Shown in pieces: positions 20,640 through 40,495 of a stretch of 60,152 bases of DNA. The position numbers and the translations under genes are program-made. Positions within the stretch are counted from its first letter, which is position 1. Each line of letters starts with the position of its first letter. Location of the stretch: the IMG/VR virus record IMGVR_UViG_3300048797_000033, positions 1 to 60,152 of that record, one strand, 5' to 3'. The notes below the pieces were generated by a model. That model worked only from the letters and a program-made list of their open reading frames with translations, was not told where the DNA came from and did not search any database. This stretch comes from a virus.

Positions 20640-21419
20640 TTAAACCTCTGTTGTATATGCTAGCGTAAACTCTTTTTCAATAGTCCGTGAGCAGGGAATA
20701 ATGACAGCACTCTCCACGGTAGTAGTAAATTCCAGGCTTTCGTGTACTCCGTCTTTCTCCGCTTTCTCTGCCAATGATGTTTTTAGCCAGTCGTTAATAA
20801 CAATCATTGCCGAATCTACATCAACAGCCTGTAAGACAAACGTGCTTAGATAGTCGTATTCCTCTTTGTGAACCCGGACGTCTATCTGATAGAACTTGGT
20901 GTCAGCCTTGCCGTCTACACCTACTGGTTTTAGGATGTCTTTGATAATAATACAGTTGTTAAAATCCTTAACAGCAAGAATCATAAACGAACTGTCAAAA
21001 TTCAACTCGATAAAGTCCTTTGCGATGTCAAGTGCCATCTGCACCGAGTTGGCATAAAGCAGGAATCGGTGTTTCTTTTGACCGATGGTTGCCGTAACAG
21101 CCCACGGTACTATACCACAGTTCACATGAGTAGATTGACGTTTTTGGTTGCTTACTGCTACTTCTTTGATGTCTCCGGCAATGAGGTGAAAGTTAATACT
21201 GGAAAGTAGATTCCCGTCAATAAGTAAACCTTTTTGTGCAATTACTTCATTGCGCTCGATAGGCACCACCTCTCCGTTATCGTCCACAAAGTTCTCAGTC
21301 CATGTTCTTTTCAATGTTTCGGCAAGGTACATTCCGTTCATTTCTGCTGTGTCCGTAGTCACGAATCTTCTTTCGTTTTTACGTGTTTCAAGTAATAATT
21401 CTTTGTTTTTCTTTTTCAT
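20640..21419 (-). CDS. Conserved phage protein of unknown function, 259 aa
   Basis: The N-terminus LLLETRKNERRFVTTDTAEM, then LAETLKRTWTENFVDDNGEV is reminiscent of an uncharacterised Bacteroidota phage family (TRKNERRF-x-T-x-DTAE). The middle is beta-rich (GKADTKFYQIDVRVHKEEYD). One base overlaps the integrase gene, so they are co-transcribed. Function is unknown. Confidence 0.7.
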   Translation of the reverse strand: MKKKNKELLLETRKNERRFVTTDTAEMNGMYLAETLKRTWTENFVDDNGEVVPIERNEVIAQKGLLIDGNLLSSINFHLIAGDIKEVAVSNQKRQSTHVNCGIVPWAVTATIGQKKHRFLLYANSVQMALDIAKDFIELNFDSSFMILAVKDFNNCIIIKDILKPVGVDGKADTKFYQIDVRVHKEEYDYLSTFVLQAVDVDSAMIVINDWLKTSLAEKAEKDGVHESLEFTTTVESAVIIPCSRTIEKEFTLAYTTEV

Positions 21420-38549: not shown

Positions 38550-38780
38550 ATGAAAGCACAAGAAGCATACGAAAGAACAATTAATAGTGAGCTAAATACG
38601 GTTTACCTTGAAATACAGGATGCAATAAACGATGGATGTCTGAAACTTTTAACTAATAGACTATCAAAACAAACTGTGAATAGGCTATTATTAGAGGGGT
38701 ATGATGTAACAAAAGATAAAACTCCATCTGGTAAAAAACTATCATTGGTAGATTGGGATATGAATAAAAGAATTGATTAG
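38550..38780 (+). CDS. Small hypothetical protein, 76 aa
   Basis: MKAQEAYERTINSELNTVYL, then EIQDAINDGCLKLL and LSKQTVNRLLLEGYDVTKDK. The I-x-x-AI-x-x-G...L-x-x-x-GY-x-V pattern is shared by small phage proteins of unknown function. It is the only ORF between the capsid-side genes and the RNA unit, and has its own promoter and operator-like site. Confidence 0.65.
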   Translation: MKAQEAYERTINSELNTVYLEIQDAINDGCLKLLTNRLSKQTVNRLLLEGYDVTKDKTPSGKKLSLVDWDMNKRID

Positions 38781-38805: not shown

Positions 38806-38836
38806 TTGCATTGACTAAAAAATTGTCATACATTTG
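38806..38836 (+). promoter_or_regulatory. Promoter of the noncoding RNA unit
   Basis: TTGCA, 18 bases, then TACATTTG. The predicted start falls next to a perfect TTCCAC-AC-GTGGAA hairpin at 38844-38857, a natural 5' cap for a stable RNA. Confidence 0.75.
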
Positions 38837-38935
38837 TATCGTATTCCACACGTGGAAAAACGCTAGTCTCCCATCAGACCGTAAATATTGGATAAACCGA
38901 TCTGATTTGATGCCCATCTATTCGGGTCGGTAAAT

Positions 38936-39009
38936 GGGTCACTAGCTCAGTTGGTAGAGCATCTGTTTTGCAAGCAGAGGGTCTTGAGTTCGAATCTCAA
39001 GTGTATCCA
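38936..39009 (+). tRNA. tRNA-Ala(UGC)-like gene
   Basis: D-arm GCTC-AGTTGGTA-GAGC; anticodon arm TCTGT-TTTGCAA-GCAGA with anticodon TGC; T-arm TTGAG-TTCGAAT-CTCAA. Acceptor GGGTCAC pairs with GTG-T-ATCC if one base is bulged; the stem is otherwise mismatched in the middle, so charging or function may be altered. First element of the noncoding unit. Confidence 0.8.
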
Positions 39010-39327
39010 CAAATAAGTTCTTTAAAATACTAAATCATTCAGCCAGCGGGGAGACCTATCCTAGTGTTATATCGATCAATGGCTAGGGGATTCGTAGTAT
39101 TTATTATTACGACGCAGGCTGAATGATTAAAATATTGGTAATATTCGTGCGGTGGCAGACACTTATCGAATTGGTTACACACCTAACATAAGGTCTCGTA
39201 GGTGGTGAATAAGGTCAAACGGTGGACGGTTGGTGAGACAAAGCGTCCGAAGTCATAATAACTGATCAGATTGTGATGGGATTCCGAATAAATGTAACTT
39301 GAATATTACCAACGTTCTTTAAAATAA

Positions 39328-39385
39328 TAGTAGTGAGATTATCGACTATGATGTAAGACGACGGTTCGAATCCGTCATACTCCAC
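39328..39385 (+). other. Truncated tRNA-like element with intact T-arm
   Basis: GACGG-TTCGAAT-CCGTC is a perfect T-arm followed by ATACTCC-A, a plausible acceptor 3' strand. The 5' portion is too short for a D-arm; GTGAG...CTCCAC can pair partly. Either a decayed tRNA or a tRNA mimic within the structured RNA. Confidence 0.5.
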
Positions 39386-39569
39386 TCAACTCATTGGCTG
39401 TGAGAGTGATAAGATTGATTAATGATCGCTTATCACAAATTATTCGGGGTATTAAGGCTTTTCGATTGCATTAAAGAGGGTAACATAAAGAAGCTACTAT
39501 CGCCTAAACGGCAAATCAATACAATTAAACCAAGAATTAGAAATGGCTGCATAGTCGTTTCATTCGGTT

Positions 39570-39609
39570 AAGAGAGGTAAGTTAGACTTGCTTCTCTTTT
39601 CTTTTTTGT
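39570..39609 (+). terminator. Strong terminator of the noncoding unit
   Basis: AAGAGAGGTAAG and CTTGCTTCTCTT form a 12-bp stem with two G-U pairs around TTAGA, followed by TTCTTTTTT. The TTG element of the next promoter lies inside the 3' arm, so termination and restart are interleaved. Confidence 0.88.
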
Positions 39610-39618
39610 CTATCTTTG
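39588..39618 (+). promoter_or_regulatory. Promoter for tail genes, overlapping the terminator
   Basis: TTGCT, 18 bases, then TATCTTTG. A structured leader of about 120 bases separates it from the ATG at 39740. Confidence 0.75.
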
Positions 39619-39739: not shown

Positions 39740-40495
39740 ATGATTGATAGGCACGTTTTCGAGAAGCAGTACATGGATCTGGACACTGATGGGCGCAACT
39801 TACCCCTCAATGCCACGAGGGAGGTGTATAACATGCGCAGTTCAAACACTTCATCCAACGGAAAAGGGTGTATGGAAGCGGTTAAAAGCAACGTAGACAT
39901 CACCACACTCGATTTAAACGTTGGTCATCCTGGGTCTGTTCCTACCGTCACCTATTACAATTCTACTCAATCACAGACGTTCGTTCGTAACAACTGCGGG
40001 TCTGGATACTCTGGAAGCACAGTTACCTATACAGTCCCCTACGCTACATATTCGTCTACGATAAGTCAAATAGCAGCAGACCAGATGGCACTTGATGATA
40101 TATCAGCAAACGGACAAAACAACGCCAACTCAACAGGAACCTGTACCATTATTCCTAGTGGGACACTGAGTGCATATTTCATCAAAGGTGATGGAGCACC
40201 CGGTGGTTATCTTAAAATATCCAAGAACGGAACGCTGATAATCGACATCGAAAGATACACTGGTTCTGATTCGTTCTCGATAACCGACGGTGATGCAATA
40301 CATATCGAAGCGTGTTCAGCAACAAGTTCGGGAGTAGGTAACTCTATCAGTGTAGGAATCTACTCTTCTGTAAGCGGAGAACTGTGGTCTACGACACTTT
40401 CAGGATATAATCAAGTAATCACACACGACTACACATATCACACGGCAGACGGTACCATTTCAGTCCAGTGCGGTGTTCCAATATTATACTCATGA
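39740..40495 (+). CDS. Tail-region protein with DUF5977 domain
   Basis: 251 aa. Residues about 70-135 match DUF5977: YYNSTQSQTFVRNNCGSGYS, then YTVPYATYSSTISQIAADQM, then DISANGQNNANSTGTC. DUF5977 occurs in Bacteroidota surface and phage proteins. The N-terminus (DRHVFEKQYMDLDTDGRNLP) resembles starts of phage tail or stem proteins; the C-terminal part is a beta sandwich. Overlaps the next gene by four bases, so the two probably form one structure. Confidence 0.75.
   Translation: MIDRHVFEKQYMDLDTDGRNLPLNATREVYNMRSSNTSSNGKGCMEAVKSNVDITTLDLNVGHPGSVPTVTYYNSTQSQTFVRNNCGSGYSGSTVTYTVPYATYSSTISQIAADQMALDDISANGQNNANSTGTCTIIPSGTLSAYFIKGDGAPGGYLKISKNGTLIIDIERYTGSDSFSITDGDAIHIEACSATSSGVGNSISVGIYSSVSGELWSTTLSGYNQVITHDYTYHTADGTISVQCGVPILYS

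Follow-up and report, generated by a model that had tools for sequence, protein, structure and literature searches.

The window, as the whole viral stretch of 60,152 nt analysed here is called, carries a compact run of RNA genes on its plus strand at positions 38806−39618, the region followed up in this work; the upstream neighbour ends at 38780 and the downstream one starts at 39740. The region contains a candidate promoter, a tRNA-Ala gene, two copies of a boxA-like 13-mer that flank two stem-closed domains named X and Y, a circularly permuted (two-piece) tmRNA gene, and a terminator (Table 1). An earlier sequence-only reading had described a self-contained noncoding RNA unit adjoining virion genes, with promoter and terminator of its own, which is supported here; the absence of a credible ORF, also claimed, is correct for frames of at least 60 aa, none of which occurs between the flanking genes (ORF listing, 38780−39740), but a 14-codon tag frame is present. 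The "full promoter" stands only in part, as a Bacteroidota-type site is visible by eye while no sigma-70 promoter match was obtained at that site; TAnnTTTG-like boxes are also found upstream of the corresponding units of L268 and L221 (L-numbers denote the viral and genomic loci used for comparison). The tRNA-Ala-like gene was recovered by both ARAGORN and Rfam, and the terminator was likewise found; the acceptor stem of the tRNA-Ala has a bulged U between pairs four and five, which is unusual in a working tRNA.

Table 1. Features of the RNA unit (window coordinates)
Feature	Position	Strand	Basis or remark
Candidate Bacteroidota-type promoter, TTG-N20-TAcaTTTG	38806-38836	+	By eye, sequence only
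tRNA-Ala(UGC), CCA not encoded	38936-39008	+	ARAGORN; Rfam RF00005, 54.8 bits
boxA-like element 1, GTTCTTTAAAATA, just 3' of tRNA-Ala	39017-39029	+	Exact repeat
Domain X, three-way junction with perfect 12 bp closing stem	39033-39128	+	Fold, shuffles
Domain Y, perfect 12 bp closing stem	39135-39312	+	Fold, shuffles
boxA-like element 2, GTTCTTTAAAATA, directly 5' of acceptor piece	39314-39326	+	Exact repeat
tmRNA acceptor piece: helix 2 strand, GAC, T-arm, acceptor 3' strand, discriminator A	39327-39384	+	
T-arm GACGG-TTCGAAT-CCGTC, joined directly to acceptor 3' strand	39360-39376	+	Stem covaries among relatives
Acceptor stem 3' strand ATACTCC	39377-39383	+	Pairs with GGGGTAT, 39446-39452
Intervening sequence, 61 nt, GTGATAAG/CTTATCAC hairpin, removal expected	39385-39445	+	Kept in L268
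tmRNA coding piece: acceptor 5' strand GGGGTAT, D-like loop, helix 2 strand, tag, H5-like hairpin	39446-39598	+	
Helix 2, coding-piece strand	39466-39500	+	Pairs with acceptor piece; 8 + 5 + 8 bp
Tag frame GKSIQLNQELEMAA + stop	39510-39554	+	Predicted; resume codon GGC, preceded by CCTAAAC
H5-like 9 bp hairpin, holds tag end; stop codon begins in loop	39540-39561	+	Fold
Intrinsic terminator	39570-39598	+	Sequence; stem changed on both sides in L268
TATCTTTG box, probable promoter of downstream operon (39740 onward)	39611-39618	+	Sequence only

Terminase and portal group the window with the elemo-like podoviruses of Flavobacterium and with MW202828 at 20−30% identity; from these phage relatives and the promoter type the host is inferred to be a member of the Bacteroidota. 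A permuted tmRNA is absent from MW202828 and from one elemo phage, both of which were searched whole, and no tRNA or tmRNA was found in the stretch around the portal in any of 80 portal relatives (L016−L095); the RNA unit is therefore considered an accessory of the window's lineage. Elsewhere in the window, on the minus strand at 21419−21985, lies a short tyrosine-integrase-like gene (phrog_216), here in an elemo-like phage.

Ribosomes that have stalled are released by tmRNA, which adds a tag to the incomplete proteins on them. The part of the unit that runs from the "second T-arm" of the sequence-only reading through the terminator (39314−39598) is a circularly permuted tmRNA gene, and it accounts for roughly half of what had been taken for an ornate RNA; the T-arm itself is real (39357−39384) and is now read as belonging to this gene. 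Acceptor piece, intervening sequence and coding piece follow one another in the order of permuted tmRNA. The 7 bp acceptor stem lies between the two pieces and has a G-U at its third pair (G3-U70), which is an alanine identity element; helix 2 is formed from 39327−39334 with 39493−39500, 39339−39343 with 39479−39483, and 39349−39356 with 39466−39473. An unconstrained minimum-energy fold recovers the acceptor stem, the T-arm and the three-part helix 2 unaided. The 5' end of the acceptor piece is uncertain and CCA is not encoded; the 3' end of the coding piece is presumed to be at the terminator. Of the pseudoknots PK1−PK4, no clear PK1 is visible by eye, and the folds were computed with programs that omit pseudoknots.

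In a permissive Rfam scan, positions 39334−39554 give a full-length match to the permuted tmRNA model RF04321 with 36.1 bits (E = 1.8e-5), below the gathering cut-off of 47 bits; the cyanobacterial permuted tmRNA model cyano_tmRNA (RF01851) also matches the window (E = 1.3e-5). ARAGORN reports no tmRNA either in the window or in L268, a 34 kb viral contig found by scanning for GTTCTTTNAAATA after a T-loop. The L268 homolog scores 29.4 bits in the Rfam covariance model, and the relatives in L113, L112, L111, and L013 exceed the cut-off. Patterns and family searches together placed permuted tmRNAs also in L013, L097, L098, L100, L103, L106, L108, L111, L112/L221, L113/L222, L217, and L348; L013 is the crAss-like phage cr114_1, where the GenBank annotation is likewise tmRNA. 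The gene exceeds the cut-off in one of 395 sampled Bacteroidota genomes, namely L217, where it is located inside a tRNA cluster. The first acceptor-plus-GGGGT pattern returned only the tRNA clusters of large phages in L010 and L011 and was set aside as a chance match; one of these tRNA-rich contigs has at L011 6420−6565 a tRNA-like gene interrupted by a large insert (GGAGTTG ... CAACTCCACCA, T-arm, about 110 nt between).

The closest comparison is provided by L268, whose unit consists of a promoter, tRNA-Met, GTTCTTTAAAATA, permuted tmRNA and terminator, with neither X nor Y; its tmRNA is 71.6% identical to that of the window over 285 nt (blastn E = 1e-32). A joint fold of the two shows both-side changes in 15 pairs and no broken pair, and within helix 2 each pair is either conserved or altered on both sides, with none broken. 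The automatic joint fold omitted the T-stem; read directly, this stem adds four further both-side changes (GACGG/CCGTC against CTCCC/GGGAG in L268), and the T-loop of L268 is shorter by one base. The hairpin of the intervening sequence also differs on both sides from that of L268; the H5-like hairpin, 9 bp in the window, is not preserved as such there. Covariation was assessed on the acceptor/T-arm of 12 distinct phage or prophage sequences (10 in an earlier set), the L268 row having one N in the T-loop to keep register. Across this set 99.3% of cells are paired, both-side changes occur in 9 of the 12 pairs, none of 500 shuffles comes up to this, and slid controls collapse. The acceptor stem is paired in 100% of cells with four of its seven pairs covarying, all five pairs of the T-stem change on both sides, and G3-U70 is invariant in all 12 sequences.

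The frame of the predicted tag is preserved too: despite many codon changes, the aligned frame of L268 reads GNVYQLNPEVKAAA and a stop. The tags of L217 (GKVIQMNNAPVRLAA), L222 (GKLIAFGRPAVKAAA), and L348 (GKNNNFSVNFGPVAQTAAPKAMMAAA, GK...MMAAA) terminate, as do those of the window and L268, in AA and a stop; an Ala-Ala end is the usual hallmark of tmRNA tags, and the MAA end of the window's tag looks like a ClpXP-type degron. The tag of cr114_1, GNFYVTDYTRIAA, starts at GGC like that of the window. A frame starting from GCA (ANQYN, then stop) was rejected, as it is without Ala-Ala and GGC opens the frame in the relatives. Phage tmRNAs of standard form, with tags of unusual length (ANVELSTWTFEDAMAFAEGELEMAA), are present at L099 836−1228 and L101 304−695; one of the two ends in ELEMAA, like the window's tag.

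The two identical 13-base elements described before are confirmed, and the exact 13-mer has only these two copies in the 60 kb window. An identical 13-mer precedes the permuted tmRNAs of three other phages (L112/L221, L113/L222, and L268); searching for GTTCTTTNAAATA no more than 40 nt ahead of GAC and a T-arm gave two matches, L112 and L113, each a permuted tmRNA preceded by the identical 13-mer. A T-loop followed 15−45 nt later by GTTCTTTNAAATA occurs at no fewer than 119 viral loci, and the reversed motif, used as a control after the T-loop, at none. What follows this tRNA-boxA motif is a further tRNA, a gene for a small protein, or noncoding sequence; in L225, L233, L246, L267, L272, and others a small membrane-protein-like ORF (MEQILAFVLGV..., about 80−130 aa) recurs just after it. 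The closely similar form GTTCTTTGACATATTG occurs in the genomes of Bacteroidota in 16S leaders or before 23S. Of 100 genome matches of this form, 21 are in rrn operons, 11 of these right after a spacer tRNA, and 76 are near neither a tRNA nor the rRNA markers used. The core GTTCTTTRAMATA is the sequence found in Bacteroidota rrn leaders and spacers, and sequence and position make it very probable that the 13-mer is a boxA element. By analogy with the boxA of rRNA operons, whose role is known (PMC4807359, PMC5725501), the 13-mers would most likely bring in the Nus (NusB-S10) complex of the host; a literature search in the library consulted returned nothing on boxA in phage tRNA operons.

Domains X and Y comprise the 280 nt left unaccounted for by the tmRNA. 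Their two perfect 12 bp long-range stems are present as first described and exceed chance: the X stem (39033−39044 with 39117−39128) extends to 16 nt at 94%, the Y stem (39135−39146 with 39301−39312) is 12 bp at 100%, and the longest Watson-Crick stem in 200 dinucleotide shuffles of 39030−39313 averaged 7.1 bp with a maximum of 11, never reaching 12. The fold of the whole 39010−39610 RNA has z = −5.4 (20 shuffles). X alone has z = −5.5 and is a convincing structured RNA far stabler than chance; because whole Y has z = −1.3 and its interior z = +0.3, Y is not "ornate" past its closing stem. The earlier description of an ornate structured RNA fails for the interior of Y, which is no stabler than shuffled sequence. 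The proposal of a new GOLLD- or ROOL-like RNA, as a member or as a class of its own, found no backing in the search with GOLLD, ROOL and other large-RNA covariance models, as no Rfam family matches X or Y at E values up to 5.

Relatives of X-Y were absent from the 341 compared loci (nhmmer, blastn), from plasmids, and from the INPHARED phages, in which the best match (E = 3) lies inside structural genes. None was found in the 395 Bacteroidota genomes; five matches of 21−38 nt with per-genome E values of 0.002−0.008 are taken as chance because the search was spread over 395 genomes. A likeness of X to the L230 and L243 spacers noted by eye was dropped after nhmmer found nothing, as was the idea of Y as a 6S-like RNA, given the lack of an Rfam match and an interior no stabler than shuffles. 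Since L268, L221, and L222 have boxA and tmRNA without X or Y, the two domains are most simply read as an extra, separable RNA placed behind the tRNA, either a single one of 280 nt or a pair. Segments closed by 9−13 bp stems are also located just after boxA at L273 3448−3590, L282 2510−2725 (minus strand), L330 634−772, and L342 10347−10512 (minus strand); it is possible that these noncoding segments are structured RNAs without a family. Long stems after boxA number 11 among 87 loci against 4.9−5.7 expected at a score of at least 11, by which a general rule of boxA followed by a stem-closed RNA is weakly supported.

The reading that we hold with high confidence makes the RNA unit a polycistronic operon of noncoding RNAs in a Bacteroidota phage, which includes a permuted tmRNA and would serve trans-translation under boxA antitermination. 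The operon would run from the promoter through tRNA-Ala, boxA, X, Y, the second boxA and the permuted tmRNA to the terminator. Processing of the tRNA type (RNase P, 3' trimming, CCA addition) is expected to excise the 61 nt intervening sequence; CCA, encoded neither in the tmRNA nor in the tRNA-Ala, would be added by a host enzyme, and the two pieces would stay joined through the 7 bp acceptor stem and helix 2. Charging of the acceptor piece would then fall to alanyl-tRNA synthetase, by way of G3-U70. No SmpB gene was found in the window, and host SmpB would therefore be needed; with it and EF-Tu the charged tmRNA is proposed to enter stalled ribosomes, where translation would resume at GGC and GKSIQLNQELEMAA would be appended. 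The phage may benefit by keeping ribosomes cycling in infection, and boxA with the Nus complex may allow the untranslated, highly structured operon to be transcribed without Rho termination.

It is improbable that the tmRNA is instead a decoy or pseudogene, in which a retained tRNA-like domain would occupy SmpB or ribosomes and block the host tmRNA. Tag-less phage tmRNAs do exist, and the form from mycobacteriophage DS6A inhibits the endogenous tmRNA (PMC11915505); the window's gene also has a low Rfam score and lacks demonstrated pseudoknots. L268, however, retains the tag frame through many substitutions, with AA and a stop and a conserved resume context, and both-side changes maintain the acceptor and helix 2 stems. 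Far less credible is a single large ornate RNA of the GOLLD/ROOL kind with an incidental T-arm: the size, the tRNA neighbour, the long-range stems and the fold z of −5.4 agree with it, and GOLLD adjoins a tRNA-boxA in L296, but the 3' half is homologous to permuted tmRNA, the L268 unit is entirely without X and Y, and the family searches described above returned no large RNA.

Two further readings concern X-Y. It may be a 5' extension of the acceptor piece that replaces the missing pseudoknot domain (PK2−PK4), part of which could sit upstream of the acceptor strand in a permuted gene; the coding piece does stop soon after the H5-like hairpin. This is nevertheless unlikely, as a boxA copy separates Y from the acceptor piece, and in L268, L221, and L222 boxA and the acceptor piece are complete without X or Y. 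The identical 13-mers might also be a target-site duplication left by insertion of X-Y between tRNA-Ala and tmRNA, and not boxA at all; they flank X-Y exactly, and the relative L268 has no X-Y at this place. There is little to recommend this version, given that the 13-mer is single before the permuted tmRNAs of three other phages, that the GTTCTTTNAAATA 13-mer follows tRNAs at the 119 or more loci mentioned, and that terminal inverted repeats are absent from X-Y. As insertion and a copied boxA do not conflict, the duplication and boxA readings can both be partly true.

The gene is most similar to the permuted tmRNAs of RF04321 and RF01849−RF01851, with which it shares the piece order, the 7 bp acceptor stem with G3-U70, the T-arm, helix 2, the intervening sequence and a tag ending in AA and a stop. 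It differs from the Rfam members in its score below the cut-off, in being missed by ARAGORN, in the boxA upstream, in the lack of demonstrated pseudoknots, and in its location in a Bacteroidota phage; the named permuted tmRNA lineages are those of the Alpha- and Betaproteobacteria and the Cyanobacteria. Permuted tmRNA in phages is already known, including that of the crAss-like gut phage cr114_1. In the latter (NC_055897) and in Melnitz (PMC9004378), as in the window, the permuted tmRNA is carried by a phage and has tRNAs within its unit or next to it; cr114_1 differs by a tRNA-His within the intervening sequence and no boxA upstream, and Melnitz-type genes by alphaproteobacterial ancestry and linkage with a glutamine riboswitch (PMC9004378). 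Two-piece phage tmRNAs have been described as 53 ARAGORN predictions, mostly marine (PMC9004378), and permuted forms have been reviewed, including a case with a tRNA-Ala inside the intervening sequence (PMC11915505). The divergent sub-threshold tmRNA clade, the boxA leader and the unexplained X-Y are new. Two-piece tmRNAs are almost absent from the host phylum, and the window places one in a phage of that phylum; several other viral contigs contain related genes, some of which are missed by ARAGORN or lie below the Rfam cut-off.

The window's boxA has the GTTCTTTRAMATA core in common with that of rRNA operons and, like it, is placed ahead of structured RNAs and behind tRNAs, as seen in the 16S leaders and 16S-23S spacers of Bacteroidota; it differs in sitting in a phage tRNA/tmRNA operon. 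This suggests that the tRNA arrays of the window's phage group carry ribosomal-type boxA signals. A broader idea, that Bacteroidota phages borrow host rRNA boxA/Nus antitermination for tRNAs, tmRNA and other untranslated RNAs, X-Y being one of several undescribed structured RNAs led by boxA, is put forward tentatively and is somewhat doubtful. Ribosomal-type boxA signals in the tRNA arrays would account for the escape of long untranslated phage operons from Rho termination, and boxA is a handle for finding more phage RNAs like X and Y.

Like GOLLD and ROOL, the unit holds large structured phage RNA near a tRNA; it differs in having no covariance-model match to them. A GOLLD RNA of 160 bits is located on a small viral contig just upstream of a T-arm and boxA (L296 333−747, minus strand). 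Hatchet ribozymes and RAGATH-9/RAGATH-20 RNAs share contigs with permuted tmRNAs (L106 1178−1279, 2214−2371, and 4004−4132; L111 34−156 and 1286−1448; L108 1067−1221), and integron attC-like repeats surround the permuted tmRNA of L222 (1300−1480 and 1650−1900). In cr114_1 an acceptor/T-arm minihelix (GTGAG...GAGGGTTCGATTCCCTCCCTCAC) is present 3' of the coding piece at L013 2829−2875, and is possibly a processing site for the 3' end of that tmRNA.
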